Assembly (NCBI GenBank): GCA_026393975.1
Contig: JAPKZD010000009.1
Span: forward strand, 1 to 64,000
DNA from: Candidatus Aminicenantota bacterium
GTDB taxonomy: Bacteria > Acidobacteriota > Aminicenantia > Aminicenantales > Saccharicenantaceae
Direction: 5' to 3'
Length of the DNA stretch: 64,000 bases
Positions within the stretch are counted from its first letter, which is position 1; every line of letters begins with the position of its first letter. Under the pieces are notes generated by a model that made no database searches, was not told where the DNA came from, and saw nothing but the letters and a program-made list of their open reading frames with translations. Below, piece after piece: positions 42,558-56,851 of the stretch. The position numbers and the translations under genes were made by a program.

Positions 42558-44042
42558 TCAGTTCTCACCAGGAAATCCCAGCTTTTTCCATGTCCCTTCT
42601 TGCTTTAGGATCTTATCCAGATTTCGCTCTTTGAAGTACTTTATAACCTCTGGCTGGGAGAGACGCCTGGAGAGGGCTTCCCGCCGGTTCGCGGCAAAAT
42701 AGATAATTGTGGCGACAGCGGCCGTGTTCATGTTCAACTTGTCCGCCTCGATCTTTTCGAACGTATCGGCGTAGCTGTGGCCCCAGCTCCAGTCGCGCAC
42801 TCCCCGGCCCTGAAGACCCAAGGCTGGGACACCCTTAGCCACGAAATTGAAATCATCGCTGTCGTAAGGGTAGCGGGCATCGATCTGAGTGACACCCAGT
42901 CCGGCGAGCATGGGCAGGACTTCCCCGAGCTTGTCCCCGATCGGGCAAGCGCCGTAAGGATTGATGACCCCGGGATACATCAGACCCGTCATGTCCAGGT
43001 TGACCATTAAAACGACTTTGTCGAGTTCGGATTCATGGTCATTCACGTATTGAAAAGAACCCAGCAGTCCCTCCTCTTCACCCGAGAACAGGACGATCCT
43101 GACCGTCCTTTTCGAAGCCAGGTCCGGAGCGCTTAAGATCCGTGCCGTTTCCAAGGCGATCGAAACCCCCAGGGCATTATCCGCGGCCCCGGGACCGAGA
43201 AACCAGCTGTCCAGGTGGGCCCCCAGGATGACCAATTCTTCGGGTCTCTCCTTTCCGGCTATGTCCCCAACAACGTTTTCAGCCACGGCCCGACCGGTCA
43301 TTGTGTTTTGTGTGAGGAGTCTCAGTTTCAGCGTCTTACGGCCTTCGAGCTGTCGTCGTATCCACGTTCCGTCTTCGTAGGCGACCGAAACCGCAGGAAT
43401 GGGACTGTATCCTCCATAACTGGAAGCCCGCGTCCGCGTCAGCCCGCCTTTCGCTCCGGCGATGATGAGGCAGGCGGCCGCTCCCTTCCTGGCGGCGAAA
43501 TCGACTTTCTGCCATTCCTTGGTCGCGAAAGCGGGGTCGGCCGGATCCTGCAGGCCTGCCAAAACGATTTTTCCCTTGATGAGCGGGCCGGCCTTTTCAT
43601 AGTCTTCCTGGGTCCCGTGACCGACATCGATGACATCCGCTACAAGGCCCCCGGGAGAGGTGTTGATCGAGAACCCCAGGGTATCGACCCTGAGTCTTTT
43701 GTGAAACGGCTCAAGGGCTTCGGCGACGGCCTGCCCGGGGAGCCAATCTCCGATCCCAAAGGACTCGGCATGCACGTTGGTCAGGCCGTAATTTCTCAGG
43801 AGGTCAAGACAATAGCTGGCGGCGCGGTGGGCCGCCTCGGAACCGGTCAGGCGGGGGCCGATCTCATCGGAGAGGACCCTGAGTGTTCGAATTCCGCTGT
43901 TCTTCACGAAGACGTCTCCCATGATCCTCGCGGCGGCCTTTTCCAGGTCGTCCCCCGCCGTGTTCGCGTAAAAGAAAATCAACGGGAAGCAAAAAGCGCC
44001 GATTGCGATCATAATCCTGGTTCCCGGTCTCTTATTTCTCAA
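42558..44042 (-). CDS. M28-family aminopeptidase with PA domain
   Basis: The protein has 494 residues with a signal peptide (about 1-25). A PA domain (about 125-250) precedes a canonical M28 core: GAHLDSW (His276), GAADNALG, SGEEEGLLGS with the intact Glu-Glu pair, NLDMTG and GHSYADTFEKI. Unlike the two large paralogues elsewhere in the window, it keeps every catalytic residue. Start: TTG 44042 has GGAGGAGG 6 bases before it and begins directly at the signal peptide; longer ATG starts lack any such signal. It follows the amidohydrolase gene by 158 bases on the same strand, possibly in an operon headed by TonB receptor 2. Confidence 0.9.
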   Translation of the reverse strand: MRNKRPGTRIMIAIGAFCFPLIFFYANTAGDDLEKAAARIMGDVFVKNSGIRTLRVLSDEIGPRLTGSEAAHRAASYCLDLLRNYGLTNVHAESFGIGDWLPGQAVAEALEPFHKRLRVDTLGFSINTSPGGLVADVIDVGHGTQEDYEKAGPLIKGKIVLAGLQDPADPAFATKEWQKVDFAARKGAAACLIIAGAKGGLTRTRASSYGGYSPIPAVSVAYEDGTWIRRQLEGRKTLKLRLLTQNTMTGRAVAENVVGDIAGKERPEELVILGAHLDSWFLGPGAADNALGVSIALETARILSAPDLASKRTVRIVLFSGEEEGLLGSFQYVNDHESELDKVVLMVNLDMTGLMYPGVINPYGACPIGDKLGEVLPMLAGLGVTQIDARYPYDSDDFNFVAKGVPALGLQGRGVRDWSWGHSYADTFEKIEADKLNMNTAAVATIIYFAANRREALSRRLSQPEVIKYFKERNLDKILKQEGTWKKLGFPGEN

Positions 44043-44200
44043 GTTTTTCCTCCTCCGGCAAGTTTTGTTTTGTCCAAGGCTCTTCATCCCGGTCCTTACC
44101 CAGCTTGGAAACTCGATTTTTACGCGCATGACAATACCACGGTTGGCAGGCGCAGTCAAAAGGATCCGGCGCATCAGCGGACCGCCCGGCTGCGGCGAAC

Positions 44201-45655
44201 CTAAAACTCCAGAAGCTCGACGACTTTCTTGATCGGAAGTTTGTCGCGCTCGACGATCCGGCCGTCCTTCATCACCAGCGAAATCTTCTCGAGGTTGCCG
44301 ATGTCATCGAGGGGATTGGCATCGAGGATGACCAGGTCCGCCGCCTTCCCTTTCTCGAGAGTCCCGAACCGGTCGAGCTTGTGATAGCCTCGCGCCACAT
44401 TGCGCGTGGCGCAGAGGAGGATGTCCATCGGCTTCATCCCGCGCTCGGCCATGGCCCGGCACCAGATGAAATGGCCCTTTCCCAGCGTGTCCAACCGGTC
44501 CACCTTGACTTCAGGGGGCATATCCGCCACGACCTCCGGCGACCAGATCCCCGCGTCGGTCGTCATCATGATTGGAATCCCGGCCTCCATGAAATGGGCG
44601 ATGTTCAGATTCCTGCTCTCAAGAGAGCGCCTGGCCGCCGGGTTCTGAGCGTACCTCTTCAGACTGGCCTCATCCTTCTTCTTGGTGTTCGGCAGGATGC
44701 CGCAGGTGATGTTCTTCTCTTTCAGCTTGGCGATCGTCGCCGCCGGAATCGGCTCATTTTCCGTGATGTCGGCATGGGTGATCATGTCAACGCCCGCCTC
44801 GACCGCCATCCTCAGGCTCTCGACGTTGCTGGTGTGGCACTGGGAGGTAAGATTGGATTTGTGCCCTTCCTCGACAATGGCCCGCTGCGCCTCCTCGGAG
44901 AATAGGAGGACGGCATCGTCGTTGTGCCCGCTCGATCCGTACTTAAGGAAATCAGGGCCCCGGGATATGTATTTCCGAATTTCCAGGGCGACCTCGTCCG
45001 GTCGAAGGAACCCGAGTTCCGGACCAACATTCTCTTCCCAGATGGAATTGATCCGTTTCCTGAACGTTTTGCTCGCCGCCGGGTCCGGGTTGAAATCCCG
45101 GCCAAGGGGGCCGCTGAAGCCGATGATGTTGCCCGCGACAAACATCCGGCTTCCGGCGATTTCTCCCCTATCGATCCTGTCCCGCACATTCATGAGCGGC
45201 TGCAGAGGGCCCCACGTATCGAAAGCCGTCGTGACCCCGGCCTTCAGCGCGACCTGCGCCGACTCCTCGGCGAGATCTTCAAAGCGACCTTCGTAGCGGG
45301 CCAGGTACTCAACCGAAGTGCCGAACGTGAAGTGGACGTTGCCATCGATAAAGCCCGGGATGATGTACTTGCCGGAAGCGTCGATCCTGGCCGCATTTCT
45401 CGGAATTAGAATCTGGCCTTTCTTCGCGACGGCGATTATTTTTTTGTTCTGGATCAGGATGACCGCGTCGGCCAGAGGAGCCCCGCCTGTGCCGTCGATG
45501 ATCGTCCCCCCGACAACGGCCGAAACATCGGGGACGGGTCCGGCCTTTCCTGGACTCTTATCGGCGGCGCCGCCCCAGGCCAAGACCGCCGTCGCGGCGA
45601 ACAGAATTCCCATGCCGATCGTCGTTGCTCTGTCAGGACGCGGAGTTCGGATCAT
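44201..45655 (-). CDS. Exported amidohydrolase-superfamily protein
   Basis: The protein has 484 residues with a signal peptide (about 1-24). The TIM-barrel amidohydrolase pattern is visible: IIPGFIDGNVHF, Lys in FLKYGSSG, His in SQCHTSN and ITHADI, and Asp in TTDAGIWSP. The first metal motif, normally HxH, is NxH here (Asn106-Val-His108). The imidazolonepropionase/prolidase-like group would hydrolyse cyclic or peptide amides, but the exact substrate is unclear. ATG 45655 has GGAGAAAACG before it; a GTG at 45667 is less likely. It lies between TonB receptor 2 and the M28 peptidase and is probably cotranscribed with them. Confidence 0.87.
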   Translation of the reverse strand: MIRTPRPDRATTIGMGILFAATAVLAWGGAADKSPGKAGPVPDVSAVVGGTIIDGTGGAPLADAVILIQNKKIIAVAKKGQILIPRNAARIDASGKYIIPGFIDGNVHFTFGTSVEYLARYEGRFEDLAEESAQVALKAGVTTAFDTWGPLQPLMNVRDRIDRGEIAGSRMFVAGNIIGFSGPLGRDFNPDPAASKTFRKRINSIWEENVGPELGFLRPDEVALEIRKYISRGPDFLKYGSSGHNDDAVLLFSEEAQRAIVEEGHKSNLTSQCHTSNVESLRMAVEAGVDMITHADITENEPIPAATIAKLKEKNITCGILPNTKKKDEASLKRYAQNPAARRSLESRNLNIAHFMEAGIPIMMTTDAGIWSPEVVADMPPEVKVDRLDTLGKGHFIWCRAMAERGMKPMDILLCATRNVARGYHKLDRFGTLEKGKAADLVILDANPLDDIGNLEKISLVMKDGRIVERDKLPIKKVVELLEF

Positions 45656-45794
45656 CGTTTTCTCCACTCCATTTTTCCGAGTCTAACTCAGGGGAGGCCC
45701 TGGGTGTCAGCCGTCGGGCCGTCTCTCCTGTCCGGCGTTGGACCGGAATGAAATTCAGCAGCGCATACGCGTTGGAATGCCCCTGAGAACCGGT

Positions 45795-48590
45795 CTAAAA
45801 CCTCCAGGTCAGCCCAATTCTCGAGGTCCGTGGCGGGAAGAGGGAGGTGGGTTTTCCATAGTTCGATATTCCCGATGGAGAATATACGCCGTACGGAGTT
45901 GTCCCCACGCGATAGTAATAATCTGAATTGAAAAGATTGAACATATCTGCCTGCAGCTCCAGCTGGGACGTCTTGATCTTGAATATCTTGGCGACCCGGA
46001 GATTGAGGTTGTACGATGCCGGCGGACGATGGCTGCCCCGGGGATCCAGGAAAAGTGTGACCCAGCCGTACGAACGCGCCACGTCGGCGAAACGAGAACT
46101 GACTTGCGTTTCCCATTGCAGGGCGGACATGATCCGCAGGTCCGCGCTCAACGACAGCCCCCAGGGCCCCAAATAGCTGGTGAGCAGCTTGATCTGGTGA
46201 GTCCTGTTCCAGACGGGTCCGTACTGGAAGGTATTCTGAGAGAACTGGGGATCGGTATCAAAATTGATATAGGATTCTCCGAAGATGTCCATCTCTCCGT
46301 CCAAACCCGGCGTGTTCCCTTTGCTGTTTTGGTAGAAATAGGAGAGCGTCATGGCCCAGTGTCTGCTCTGCTGCTTCTTCAACACGATCATGATGAGGTG
46401 GTGGTTCTTTTTCTCGAGCTTGGAATTCGTGAGCATGAGATCATCGTCGGACAGGCTATCGACTTGATCCCACACCGTGATCGTGTTATTGAGCCAGGGG
46501 TCGGTCCACTGTCTCTCGCTGTAGACGTGATTGGCCGCGTTTGAAGACGTGTATTGATAACGGTCCCGGTCTCTCTTGTAGATATAATCGATGGACAGGA
46601 CAAAATTCGCCCCGAACTGTTTTTCGAATCCGACGTTGAATGTATCGGTGTTGTTGACCGTGAGGTTGGGATCGATCGCAACCGGCGTCCCCTGGGGCTG
46701 AACGAAGGCCAGGAATTCGGGTTGAGTGAGATAGGCAAGCATCGCCTTGAGATTCTCGGCCGAAGTATCGAAAGGAGCGGTCGGCAGAAAGGTTTCATAG
46801 AAATAATAATTGTTGTTGCCGGGAGTCGCCCTGTAGTAAGTCCCGATAAGGGGCTTGTTGTAATACCGGCCGTAGCTGGCATGGAAAACATTCCTCGCGT
46901 CGCCTCCGAGATCATAGGAAAATCCCACCCGGGGAGAGAAGAGATTAAACTTAGCCAAAGTTCCACTGTAATAACGAGCCGTTAACCTCGGGTTCTCGAA
47001 GCGTACCCCCAGGTTAAAGAAGAATTTCTTTCCGATCTTGATGTCGTCCTGAACGAAAGCGCAAAAACGGCTCAGTTTACCCAGGTTATCACGACCGGCC
47101 CACTGTTCCGCGTACCATAACGTCGTTCCATCTTCATAATTGTAGCTCTGAAAGTAGCCTCCTCCTGTGTACTGCCTCCACTCGCCGGCCTGCGATCTCT
47201 CGTATTCCACTCCCACTTTGAATTCATGGGAGGCCCTGAGGAAATCGTCGGCGTAATGGGTCAACGCCGCATTGACCTGAATCCGCTGGGAATAGTCCCT
47301 CATCATCTCGGAGAATCCGCCGTAATAGACATCGTTCGACGCGTCGTAGTACATCGGGACGTCAGGCGCATACATGTGCTTGGTGATGTTGTCCTTGTAG
47401 CCGGCAAGTTTCACGTACAAAACCGAGTTCGCGGCGAGGGTGGAGTTCCAGCTCGCGAAAATGGTATTCATCTGCATCGGAAAATCGTATCCCGTGGAGT
47501 CCTGCCAGCCGTTGAGGACGTGCCGGTTCTTAATGGAAACCGGATTTCCATTCCAGAGCAGAGTCACCGCGTTCCGGTTGTTGACGAGCCAATCGACTTT
47601 GGCGTAGTACTGCTGCTTCTGGTTCGATTCGTAAAAGGGCGAGCCTCCTTTCCGTTTGTAATTGAAATCTTCATAACCGGCGCCCAGAAAGAAGAAGAGT
47701 TTTTCCCTGATCAGCGGTCCCGAAAAGGTCCCCGCAATCGGCACGTCGTACTTATACGAATCCGGCTTCAAGTTGACGAGGCCTCCCGAGTTGTCCGCAA
47801 ACCAGCCGCGCCCTCCGGTATAGCCAACCGAAAGCGAGCCGTGAAAATCGTTAGTGCCGCTCTTCGTGACGACATTGACGGAGGCACCGATGAAGTTCCC
47901 GTACTCGGCGGAAGCCCCGGTGGCGATAACTTGAATCTCTTCAATTGTCTCGTAAAGGGGGTTTACCGTGGTGTATCCGTAATCCGGCTTTCCAACGTCG
48001 ACACCGTTCAGCTGGAACCCTGTGGTCGCTGAACCCATGGCCAGCCCGGCCCAGCCGTTGTTTCCCCCGGCTCCAAAGCCGCTCATGTCATAGAATCCCG
48101 GTGCGGCATTCATGATGTCTTTGAAGTCGCGCGAGCGGGAGGGGGTTGTTTCGATCACCTCACTGCTAAAGCTCGTGGTTAGCTGGGGAGTCTTCGTTTC
48201 TATTAGCGGTGCCGTCGCTATAACAGTCGTTTCGGCGTTGAGCTTGGCAGTTGTCATTTTTGCCTGGACCGGAGTGGTTTTCCCGACGTTGACAGGAACA
48301 TTGGGAAGCTCCAGCGTATTGAACCCCGGCAGCGAGATTCCCAACTTGTACACTCCGGGAGTCAGGTTCAAAAAGCGGAAACCGCCCCTCTGGTTGGACA
48401 CCGCCGAAATAGCTTTTTGTAACAGCTTCTCCCCCTGCAGGGTAATCGTGGCCCCTGGCAGGATGGCACCTTGCTCATCAATAACCGTTCCCGAAATATC
48501 CCCTTTTTCTTGGGTTTGAGAGAACAGCATAAAGGAGAGAAAAAGACTGAAGACAAAGAACGAAAGAACAAACTTCGCGCGCGACTTCAT
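45795..48590 (-). CDS. TonB-dependent receptor with N-terminal carboxypeptidase-regulatory-like domain (2)
   Basis: The protein has 931 residues, the same length as receptor 1. Signal peptide about 1-25, regulatory-like domain (KGDISGTVIDEQGAILPGAT), plug ending in YETIEEIQVIATGASAEYGN, and a barrel ending RIGLTWRF. Similarity to receptor 1 runs end to end but many barrel loops differ, so the ligands probably differ. GGAGAATTTAA precedes ATG 48590. The leader from the site C promoter is about 70 bases. Downstream on the same strand come an amidohydrolase (139 bases) and an M28 peptidase, suggesting an import-and-hydrolysis unit. Confidence 0.92.
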   Translation of the reverse strand: MKSRAKFVLSFFVFSLFLSFMLFSQTQEKGDISGTVIDEQGAILPGATITLQGEKLLQKAISAVSNQRGGFRFLNLTPGVYKLGISLPGFNTLELPNVPVNVGKTTPVQAKMTTAKLNAETTVIATAPLIETKTPQLTTSFSSEVIETTPSRSRDFKDIMNAAPGFYDMSGFGAGGNNGWAGLAMGSATTGFQLNGVDVGKPDYGYTTVNPLYETIEEIQVIATGASAEYGNFIGASVNVVTKSGTNDFHGSLSVGYTGGRGWFADNSGGLVNLKPDSYKYDVPIAGTFSGPLIREKLFFFLGAGYEDFNYKRKGGSPFYESNQKQQYYAKVDWLVNNRNAVTLLWNGNPVSIKNRHVLNGWQDSTGYDFPMQMNTIFASWNSTLAANSVLYVKLAGYKDNITKHMYAPDVPMYYDASNDVYYGGFSEMMRDYSQRIQVNAALTHYADDFLRASHEFKVGVEYERSQAGEWRQYTGGGYFQSYNYEDGTTLWYAEQWAGRDNLGKLSRFCAFVQDDIKIGKKFFFNLGVRFENPRLTARYYSGTLAKFNLFSPRVGFSYDLGGDARNVFHASYGRYYNKPLIGTYYRATPGNNNYYFYETFLPTAPFDTSAENLKAMLAYLTQPEFLAFVQPQGTPVAIDPNLTVNNTDTFNVGFEKQFGANFVLSIDYIYKRDRDRYQYTSSNAANHVYSERQWTDPWLNNTITVWDQVDSLSDDDLMLTNSKLEKKNHHLIMIVLKKQQSRHWAMTLSYFYQNSKGNTPGLDGEMDIFGESYINFDTDPQFSQNTFQYGPVWNRTHQIKLLTSYLGPWGLSLSADLRIMSALQWETQVSSRFADVARSYGWVTLFLDPRGSHRPPASYNLNLRVAKIFKIKTSQLELQADMFNLFNSDYYYRVGTTPYGVYSPSGISNYGKPTSLFPPRTSRIGLTWRF

Positions 48591-48703: not shown

Positions 48704-48886
48704 TACCGACGATTTCCGGACAGTCCAATTCCTATTGAGCCACATCTCCCTCTATGTATACGAGGGGCCGGCTCGTCACCGACGTACAAAGTTGGCTAGG
48801 TCAAAATATCTCAAAATTGGATATTCCCATTGACTCTTTTTTGTGTCAGATTAGGGTTTGCAAAAAGTCTTAAGAGGAGGAACGGA

Positions 48887-50203
48887 ATGATAGGATCCCT
48901 GAATATCGGCACGCCTAAGATTATGGGACGAAGGGATTTCGGAAAGAAACTGGTGGGAGGGTTCGCCCTGGGCAAAGTTTTTTCAGACGGCCTCGACCGC
49001 TCCATTTACCAAAAGCTAGCCGCCTGGGACAAGCAAAACGTCGACCAGGAAGCCCCCGACGGTGCTTATTGGGATTTTATTACCAACCAGTACATGTTTG
49101 AGCCCGGACTCATTATGATGAACAATGGGACAGCCGGGGCAATGCCCCGAGTCGTGTTCGACATTCTGACGGAGTATTTTCGAATTCAGGCCGCCAACCC
49201 GTTCAAGTGCTACTCGACTTTTGACGCCTACCGGGAGGAAGCGCGCGTCAGGGCCGCGCAGTTTATCGGCGCCCTGCCTGAGGAAGTTACCCTTTTAAGA
49301 AACACCACCGAGGGCCTGACCATCGTGGCCTACGGACTGGACATGAAGCCCGGGGACGAGGTCCTCATGAGCAATTTGGAGCACCCGTCCGGCATCTTCC
49401 CCTGGAAGCTGCGGGAAAAACGTTACGGAATCAAGATCAAAGAGGTCACGATCAATACTCCGCCTCGAAACAAAGACGAAATCCTGACCGCCATCCGCGA
49501 CGGCATTACCCCGCGCACAAAGGTCATCTTGATCAGTCATGCCGTTTACAAAACCGGGTTGATCACGCCCCTGAAAGAAATTTGCCAGCTGGCGAAAGAC
49601 AGGGGCGTATTGGTCTGCGCGGACGGAGCCCACTGCATCGGGATGCTCAACCTCAATATGCGCGACCTGGGAGTTGATTTCTATGCCAACAGCGGATACA
49701 AATGGCTCGGCGCACCCACGGGCACGGGGATTTTCTATGTCAAAAAGGAGCTTCAGAAAGACCTTTGGCCCAACATCGTCGAAGCAGACTGGGAAAATCC
49801 GGCTGTTGGCGCTCTCAAATACAGTTACGTCGGACGAATCGCCGATCCTCTTCCTATTGCTCTCGGAGAAGCAATCCACTTTCAGACGAACATCGGCAAA
49901 ATGAGAATCGAAAGGCGGATCAAGACGCTCGCGGCCTACCTCAAAGAGGAGGCCGCTAAGATTTCTAATGTCAAGGTCTTGACTCCAAATGACCCCGAAC
50001 TGAGCGGAGGGCTGACCGTTTTGGCGCTTGAAGGCATGAAAAATGACCAATTCGCCAATTACATGCTCGAAAAATATAACCTCGTCATTGCCCGCACGTT
50101 CAACGAGAAAAATGCCATAAGAGTATGCACCCACATTTTTATTTCTTTTAAGCAAATAGACACGCTTCTCGAAGGGTTAAAAGCCGTCTATGGAAAAAAA
50201 TGA
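48887..50203 (+). CDS. Tat-exported class V aminotransferase-like PLP enzyme
   Basis: The protein has 438 residues. The N terminus MGRRDFGKKLVGGFALGKV fits a twin-arginine signal (RRDFxK), so this PLP enzyme is probably exported already folded. The class V core has Schiff-base Lys272 in ANSGYKWLGAPTG, NNGTAGAMP, SNLEHPS and ADGAHCIG, closest by eye to the isopenicillin-N-epimerase/cysteine-desulfurase-like group. The reaction is unknown; epimerisation or beta-elimination are possible. AAGAGGAGG lies 6-7 bases before ATG 48887; the longer frame from 48830 starts inside the promoter area. The following gene encodes an exported RidA protein. Confidence 0.87.
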   Translation: MIGSLNIGTPKIMGRRDFGKKLVGGFALGKVFSDGLDRSIYQKLAAWDKQNVDQEAPDGAYWDFITNQYMFEPGLIMMNNGTAGAMPRVVFDILTEYFRIQAANPFKCYSTFDAYREEARVRAAQFIGALPEEVTLLRNTTEGLTIVAYGLDMKPGDEVLMSNLEHPSGIFPWKLREKRYGIKIKEVTINTPPRNKDEILTAIRDGITPRTKVILISHAVYKTGLITPLKEICQLAKDRGVLVCADGAHCIGMLNLNMRDLGVDFYANSGYKWLGAPTGTGIFYVKKELQKDLWPNIVEADWENPAVGALKYSYVGRIADPLPIALGEAIHFQTNIGKMRIERRIKTLAAYLKEEAAKISNVKVLTPNDPELSGGLTVLALEGMKNDQFANYMLEKYNLVIARTFNEKNAIRVCTHIFISFKQIDTLLEGLKAVYGKK

Positions 50204-50243
50204 TGCTTATGGTCCCATGAATCAGAGAAGACAGGAGGTCAAT

Positions 50244-50750
50244 ATGTTCAGTTTCACGAAAAATTCCTTTATCATTCTGCTCGTTCTGGGAACATCGCTT
50301 ATCACTTTTGGACACGGGAACCCGGTGCAAACGACGGGCCTCGCTTCGGCCGCAAAAGAGATCATCTCTATGCCCGGGGCAAAAACTACGGGGCTTCCGT
50401 TCAGCTCGGCCGTAAAAGTCGGAAACGTGATGTTTGTCTCTGGAGTTATCGGAACTGACGTAAAAACGAATCAACTCGTCTCAGATGACGTCGTTGACCA
50501 AACCCGGCTCTGCCTCGAAAAGCTCAAATCGGTTATAAACCAGGGAGGAATGAGCCTTGCCGATGTCGTCAACTGCACGGTTTATTTAACCGACATCAAT
50601 GACTACGATGCGATGAATAAGGTCTACGCGACATTCTTTCCGTCAGATCCTCCGGCGCGCGCGTGCGTCCAAGTTGCCAAGTTGGTCAGGGGCGCAAAGG
50701 TGGAGATTTCCTTTATCGCCGCGAACTCCAAGCAAAAACCGGAGGTTTGA
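50244..50750 (+). CDS. Exported RidA-family imine/enamine deaminase-like protein
   Basis: The protein has 168 residues: a signal peptide (about 1-25, FIILLVLGTSLITFGHG) and a complete RidA domain. Family marks: PFSSAVKVGNVMFVSGVIG, VVNCTVYLTDINDYDAMN, and the substrate Arg139 in PPARACVQVA. RidA hydrolyses reactive enamines and imines made by PLP enzymes. Cytoplasmic RidA is the rule; a signal peptide is less usual and matches the exported PLP enzyme directly upstream. AGGAGG stands 6 bases before ATG 50244; an earlier ATG at 50190 overlaps the PLP gene and lacks this signal. Confidence 0.88.
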   Translation: MFSFTKNSFIILLVLGTSLITFGHGNPVQTTGLASAAKEIISMPGAKTTGLPFSSAVKVGNVMFVSGVIGTDVKTNQLVSDDVVDQTRLCLEKLKSVINQGGMSLADVVNCTVYLTDINDYDAMNKVYATFFPSDPPARACVQVAKLVRGAKVEISFIAANSKQKPEV

Positions 50751-50987: not shown

Positions 50988-52677
<1,690 letters not shown>

Positions 52678-52685
<8 letters not shown>

Positions 52686-53961
52686 TAGCGGCTCTCCTCA
52701 TGCGGGCGACGACGCGCTCGCGGCCGAGGACTTCCATCATCTCGAACAGGCCGGCGCCTTTGGTCTTGCCGCTGATGGCCATGCGGGCGGGGTGGAAGAC
52801 CTGGCCGGCTTTGATGCCGCGCTCCTCGGCGAATTCGCGGAAGACGGCCTCGATCGCGTCGTGGGTGAAATCACCGGTCCCGGCCAGGCGGTCGGCCAGG
52901 AGGGCCAGGTACTCGCGGCTTTCCGGTTTCTCGAGGTGCTTTTTCCCTTCGTCCTCGTAGGCGAAATCCTCGCGAAAGAAATAATCGGTCATGGCCGGGA
53001 ATTCGCCAAGGGTCTTGGTCCGGACCTTGTAGAGGTCGAGGACCCTCGACAGGTAGTCGTCCGGAACCCCGGCGGTCTCGAACCCGGCCGCCTCCATCCG
53101 GTTCTTGATGAGGGGGAGCAGGCGCGCATTCTCGGCCTTCATGATGTACTCGGCATTGAGCCAGCGAAGCTTCTGGATGTCGAACTTGGCCTGGACGTCG
53201 TTCATCTCCGAGATCTCGAAGAGCCGGACGGCTTCAGCGGGGGGCATGACCTCGCGCCCGTCCTTGGGCATCCAGCCGAGGAGGACGAGGTAATTGGCCA
53301 GGGCCTCGGGCAGGAAGCCCTCGCGCTTGTACTCCTCGACCGAGACGCCGCCGTGGCGCTTGGAGAGCTTGGCCCCGTCGGTCCCCAAGATGAGCGGCAT
53401 GTGGCCGAACCGCGGCAGTTCCAGGCCGAAGGCTTCGTAGAAGATGATCTGTTTCGGCGTGTTGCTGATGTGGTCGTCGCCCCGGAGGATGTGGGTGATG
53501 CCGAGGTGGGCGTCGTCGACGACGCAGGAGAAGTTGTAGGTCGGCGAACCGTCCGACTTGATCATGACCTGGTCCTTGATCGTCTCCGTCTCGACGGCGA
53601 TCCGGCCGTGGATGAGGTCCTCGTAAGCGATCGTCCGGCCGGGCTCGACCTTGAAGAGGACGGCATCCCCGTCCTTGTAGGCCTTGCCCTTGGCCACGAG
53701 CTCCGCGGCCTTCTCGCGGTAGACATCGAACCGCCGGCTCTGGAAGATGGGCTCCTCGTCCCAGTCGAGGCCCAGCCACTTGAGGTCCTCGAGGATCTCG
53801 TCGAGGAACCTCGTCTCGGACCTCTTCAGGTCGGTGTCCTCGACCCGGAGCAGGAATTTTCCCCCGGCATGGCGGGCGTAGAGCCAGTTGAAGATGGCCG
53901 TCCGGGCGCTCCCGATGTGGAGGAAGCCCGTCGGGCTGGGGGCAAATCGAACGCGTACCAT
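52678..53961 (-). CDS. gltX: Glutamyl-tRNA synthetase
   Basis: The protein has 427 residues from ATG 53961, somewhat shorter than the common ~470. Motifs: [20 protein letters not shown] (HIGS at 15-18), [10 protein letters not shown] as the KMSKS loop (Lys201), LRVEDTD and [12 protein letters not shown]. The anticodon-binding helical domain is compact. A start six codons upstream (53979) is possible, but [12 protein letters not shown] is the normal family beginning. With glnS in the same operon, it should be a discriminating enzyme charging only tRNA-Glu (inference). Confidence 0.96.
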
Positions 53962-54035
53962 GGTCGTCTCGCTTTTCATTCCGGCCTTCGGATGGCGGCC
54001 CTCCCCGGTCGGGGAAGCCGTGATTCTACCGCGTA

Positions 54036-54727: not shown

Positions 54728-54729
<2 letters not shown>
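54706..54729 (+). terminator. Rho-independent terminator
   Basis: AAGAGGG/CCCTCTT, a 7-bp stem with a 5-base loop, followed by five further T on the plus strand. It serves the M20 stub to its left and abuts the stop of the convergent prolyl oligopeptidase gene. Confidence 0.7.

Positions 54730-56851
<2,122 letters not shown>

Follow-up and report, generated by a model that had tools for sequence, protein, structure and literature searches.

The 64,000-nucleotide stretch of DNA analyzed here (the window) is part of a 2.95-Mb Aminicenantes genome in 25 contigs (G000) and carries two neighboring genes on its forward strand. The first is an intact open reading frame at 48,887–50,203 that opens with the ATG at 48,887, is preceded by the Shine-Dalgarno sequence GAGGAGG (48,874–48,880), and encodes a class V (fold type I) pyridoxal phosphate (PLP) enzyme of 438 amino acids whose nearest characterized relative is PvdN. 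The second, ridA (50,244–50,750), encodes a RidA-subfamily protein of 168 amino acids with an N-terminal signal peptide. Its reading frame, also intact, is listed from 50,190, but the ATG at 50,244 is almost certainly the true start, since AGGAGGT (50,233–50,239) lies 4 nt upstream of it and translation from there yields a normal signal peptide at the N-terminus. A gap of 40 bp separates the two genes, which share a strand; no terminator-like site was found between them on the forward strand, and their arrangement suggests co-transcription. The same pair is present in one further species, Candidatus Aminicenantes Chersky.35_14 (JADGNU010000228, hereafter G012), the nearest relative, where the PLP enzyme is 87% and RidA about 75–79% identical.

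A TonB-type receptor gene divergently adjoins the pair, and peptidase genes are close by. The flanks (42,558–48,590 and 54,728–56,851) encode an M28 peptidase, an amidohydrolase, TonB-type outer-membrane proteins and an S9 prolyl oligopeptidase, surroundings that suggest a locus for peptide use. Two adjoining genes for class I (Glu/Gln-type) tRNA synthetases (50,988–53,979, reverse strand) converge with ridA.

A class V enzyme related to PvdN

The top Pfam family of the PLP enzyme is Aminotran_5 (PF00266; E=1.8e-47), and this match, together with three invariant residues, places it in the class V superfamily. These are the Schiff-base lysine Lys272 (49,700–49,702), which aligns with the lysine of the PvdN THKW motif; Asp246 (49,622–49,624) of the DGAH motif, which we take to bind the pyridine nitrogen; and Arg412 (50,120–50,122), the predicted binder of the substrate alpha-carboxylate, a role that we assume from knowledge of the class V family. 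His249 is likewise invariant in the 31-row alignment of homologues, and His166 (49,382–49,384), aligned with the histidine of the PvdN SHEHY motif, presumably occupies the PLP-stacking position.

PvdN, which converts the glutamate of pyoverdine to succinamide and for which we know of no RidA partner, is the best solved relative by sequence. It is also the best fold match of an AlphaFold model with a mean pLDDT of 84 (TM 0.79/0.89, the latter on PvdN), ahead of SufS and of the cystine C-S lyase C-DES, itself a good match (TM 0.84–0.86). The PvdN model (NF051467) is the highest-scoring one in NCBIfam, yet it gives only 157.9 bits against a cut-off of 650; identity to PvdN is about 26–28%, and no pyoverdine context was seen in the window. 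The enzyme is related to PvdN, with which it shares the class V fold and a Tat signal (judged by motif and conservation), but it is not PvdN itself. A SufS-type cysteine desulfurase was rejected because the SufS cysteine loop is absent: the loop before Arg412 is short and has no cysteine, and TIGR01979 scores 155 bits against a cut-off of 475. In a phylogenetic tree, the window and G012 enzymes branch deeply (length 0.89, support 100), next to one phylum-level sequence and the rest of the Aminicenantales sequences; they do not fall within the clade that holds G006, G008, G009 and G010, genomes of the same genus. Since this branch is long, its exact placement is uncertain.

Export signals of the two proteins

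The N-terminus of the PLP enzyme carries a twin-arginine signal, MGRRDFGKKLVGGFALGK, whose core comprises residues 13–36 (MGRRDFGKKLVGGFALGKVFSDGL; 48,923–48,994). The two arginines are invariant across the 31-row alignment, including one member with 28% identity, and a twin arginine occurs in 30 of 30 homologue loci read, mostly as SRRDFVK ahead of a short run of hydrophobic residues. Most homologues have the canonical [ST]RRxFxK and then LNA before the mature part. The signal was judged by motif and conservation alone: GRRDFGK resembles the [ST]RRxFLK-like motif of Tat substrates, differing from the consensus at the S and L positions, the h-region is moderately hydrophobic (1.08), and the genome encodes TatC and two TatA/B-type proteins. 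Codon comparison between the window and G012 gave a pN of 0.055 and a pS of 0.62 for residues 13–36, close to the values of the mature enzyme (pN 0.061, pS 0.51); residues 1–12 are hardly constrained (pN 0.32, pS 0.40). Purifying selection on the Tat segment is strong in this two-species comparison, and the constraint resembles that on the mature enzyme.

It is conceivable, though in our estimation unlikely, that the signal has decayed or turned into a membrane anchor, in which case the enzyme would remain in the cytoplasm or on its side of the membrane, RidA alone would be exported, and the two would not function as a pair. The h-regions of the window and G012 enzymes include a lysine and are the least hydrophobic measured (1.08–1.10 vs 1.20–1.85), the LNA motif of the homologues is replaced by L[DN]R in both so that no signal-peptidase site was recognized, and the branch leading to them is the long one described above. 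In another genome (G164), an exported RidA adjoins an apparently cytosolic class V enzyme. Against this, the twin arginine, the phenylalanine at +2 and the whole segment MGRRDFG[KR]KLVGGFALGK are nearly unchanged between the two species, and the low pN of this segment relative to its pS is not expected of decay. With the usual cleavage motif lost, the exported enzyme may stay anchored in the membrane.

The RidA of the pair matches TIGR00004 with 119.8 bits (cut-off 106.25), which assigns it to the RidA subfamily. Its Sec-type signal peptide (MFSFTKNSFIILLVLGTSLITFGHG; 50,244–50,318) has a strongly hydrophobic core (2.55 on the KD scale), no lipobox was found in the N-terminus, and cleavage after GHG is our guess. 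Signal peptides typically drift in sequence but keep their hydrophobic core, and this is the pattern between the window and G012 (pS 0.54, pN 0.27, core retained). The mature protein is under purifying selection between the same two species. Arg139 (PPARACVQV; 50,658–50,660) is, we presume, the equivalent of the catalytic Arg105 of enteric RidA, and the position equivalent to Tyr17 is a phenylalanine.

A preliminary description of this DNA had named a class V aminotransferase-like protein with a twin-arginine signal followed by a RidA with a Sec-type signal. Both are borne out by intact genes and by the family assignments above. The same description had allowed that the N-terminal segments might be poorly conserved translation artefacts. 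The codon analysis led us to reject this, given the strong Shine-Dalgarno sites, the invariant twin arginine, the purifying selection on the Tat segment, and the presence of TatC and TatA. The conserved arginines, the selection on the signal, the Tat genes and the precedent of PvdN also mean that export of both proteins, as read from their sequences, is well supported.

Distribution of the pair

The preliminary description had also proposed a search for the same exported adjacent pair across genomes; the pair occurs in a few of them and is absent from nearly all homologue loci. This RidA adjoins this enzyme in two of 94 genomes of the order, those of the window and G012. No RidA was found beside 28 further whole-genome homologue loci within flanks of up to 1.5 kb, or beside the other 64 homologue loci of the genome collection within flanks of up to 6 kb. 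RidA as a conserved neighbor of the enzyme family was rejected on its absence near these 92 loci. In G139 (contig 156; L149, 2,805–4,667), the gene for a lipoprotein-type RidA stands immediately upstream of one for a class V enzyme with a Tat signal, whose sequence opens with MYSRRQFLSRIALGG, an arrangement that, from its sequence, we read as an independent exported RidA-PLP pair. A rough estimate that assumes 2,700 genes per genome, with about 2.5 homologues of the enzyme and 1.3 RidA genes among them, predicts ~0.24 chance adjacencies in 198 genomes, and two independent events were seen. This is suggestive of pairing beyond chance but not strong.

Among 26 paralog-rich genomes, further adjacencies of RidA and class V genes have unlike or ambiguous compartments. 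In G127, an apparently cytosolic RidA adjoins an IscS-like gene, and in G165, the genes are divergent and no signal was seen; neither these nor the G164 arrangement mentioned above were accepted as extra pairs, and G191 looked doubtful. RidA and class V genes are close together in G148.

Separately, the family f6 orthologues of the PLP enzyme (L131, L133, L134, L138, L140 and L146) lie in a conserved cluster with genes for transglutaminase-like, ARMT1-like phosphatase, DUF362, DUF6599, NUDIX, M19 and two-component proteins. None of these neighbors is common to the window, and they gave no hint of the substrate. On the Pseudoalteromonas plasmid pMEGA (L151, 2,584–6,323), the gene immediately downstream of a TonB-dependent receptor gene encodes a homologue whose match begins at residue 12, in the twin-arginine region. 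No RidA neighbor of plasmid homologues was found in the two annotated regions read.

Such receptor genes bear on a competing possibility that we consider a serious one, if somewhat less probable than joint action of the two proteins: the enzyme could be an exported transaminase or tailoring enzyme of the PtaA/PvdN kind that works on a peptide or small molecule near TonB-type receptors, with RidA serving other imines and the adjacency due to shared regulation or chance. PvdN is the best match by sequence and fold, a TonB-type receptor gene and peptidase genes surround the window pair, the Pseudoalteromonas homologue has a similar neighbor, and most homologues have no RidA beside them. However, the pair is retained in two species with the mature RidA under purifying selection, and a second, independent exported pair exists in G139.

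Possible imine chemistry inside and outside the cytoplasm

Known systems supply each half of the pair. PvdN, which tailors pyoverdine in the periplasm of Pseudomonas, is exported by Tat and needs to have PLP bound beforehand (PMC6206403), and its chemistry is oxidative (PMC7497351). PtaA, a periplasmic transaminase of Pseudomonas, is likewise a Tat-exported PLP enzyme active in the periplasm, set apart from the window enzyme by its description as a normal transaminase. RidA genes cluster with genes for aminoacrylate-forming PLP enzymes such as cysteine desulfurase and threonine dehydratase (PMC4433059); these RidA are cytosolic and the survey mentions no export, whereas both window proteins carry export signals. 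A periplasmic RidA is reported beside the imine-forming amino-acid oxidase LAO1/LAO2 in Chlamydomonas (PMC10805672), and a similar cluster, lao-cccA-ridA, has been proposed in Gluconacetobacter (PMC5053998). There too RidA accompanies an imine-forming enzyme with a known or predicted site of action outside the cytoplasm, but the partner is a flavin oxidase instead of a PLP enzyme. Precedents for single exported partners are already known (PvdN and PtaA on one side, the periplasmic LAO1/RidA on the other).

Combining the Tat precedent of PvdN, the clustering of RidA with aminoacrylate-forming enzymes and the precedent of a periplasmic RidA, we propose that the two genes form a unit in which an exported PLP lyase and an exported RidA act together in the periplasm, a reading to which we give a probability of roughly 0.45. 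The PLP enzyme, a member of the PvdN/cystine-lyase/SufS-like class V group, would fold with its cofactor in the cytoplasm, cross the inner membrane in folded form by Tat, and probably remain tethered, its usual cleavage site being lost; RidA would leave by Sec. Once in the periplasm, the enzyme would bind an amino acid or amino-acid-like substrate through Arg412 and release an enamine/imine by beta-elimination or a similar route, and RidA would hydrolyze this product to a keto acid and ammonia. An imine-releasing amino-acid lyase is our best guess for the reaction; PvdN-like oxidative chemistry or plain transamination is possible. Counting against the proposal are the adjacency in only two of 94 genomes, the weakest h-region of the set and the phenylalanine at the Tyr17 position of RidA. 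The best relative, PvdN, moreover performs an oxidative decarboxylation and not an elimination. Nothing in the data specifically favors the D/L epimerization raised in the preliminary description, a reaction that on its own would need no RidA. Its broader idea, a PLP reaction and its clean-up moved outside the cytoplasm, gains from the export signals of both proteins and from their adjacency in a second species and once independently, and loses from the many enzyme homologues with no adjoining RidA. We find it neater to suppose that all of the order may already export RidA and that the lineage of the window gained a dedicated copy.

The housekeeping RidA of the order adds a wider context. In 46 of 46 genomes examined, spread over families of Aminicenantales and including that of the window (contig 6, 105,707–106,057; L001), its gene has a conserved leader of ~29 residues in frame before the canonical MKK start, which opens with a start codon and an xRR motif and includes a hydrophobic stretch (other loci of this kind are L110, L114, L119, L121–L122, L124–L127 and most of L154–L193). 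RidA loci outside the order (L103–L105, L111, L113 and L123) have no such leader. A Shine-Dalgarno match of 4 nt or longer precedes the outer start in 38/46 genomes and the inner start, always ATG or GTG, in all 46, of which 32 have AAGGAG at a distance of exactly 7 nt; at other in-frame ATGs the frequency is 10/104. Of the 53 arginine codons that fall within the six residues preceding the inner start, 39 are AGG; in the remainder of these genes the count is 27 of 287 (Fisher p ~6e-22, uncorrected for relatedness). The substitution pattern of the leader is that of coding sequence (pN 0.33, pS 0.57). These features make it probable that the housekeeping RidA exists as two proteoforms, one cytosolic and one exported by Tat. 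Our literature search, incomplete in coverage, found no paper on a Tat-signalled RidA, and for dual localization through alternative starts it returned eukaryote papers only. Separately, four genomes encode three tandem RidA domains in single frames of 406–425 amino acids (G179 contig 27, L201 2,453–3,727; G163 contig 259; G187 contig 3; G148 contig 87), which may represent the RidA trimer in one chain. The G179 protein opens with a signal peptide.

RidA, a small protein that detoxifies imines, has been studied for the protection that it gives to PLP enzymes in the cytosol. A PLP enzyme and a RidA that are encoded together and both exported would mean that imine stress arises outside the cytoplasm too, and the window pair offers a ready test case. 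More tentatively, and with slightly less confidence than in the pair itself, we suggest that the whole order keeps RidA on both sides of the membrane, cytosolic from the inner start and Tat-exported from the outer one, where it would protect lineage-specific Tat-exported PLP enzymes, and that the window pair adds a dedicated Sec-exported RidA. If so, an exported RidA would be normal in Aminicenantales and the window RidA an extra, dedicated copy, and the dual-start gene would extend the question of extracytoplasmic imines to an entire order of uncultured bacteria.
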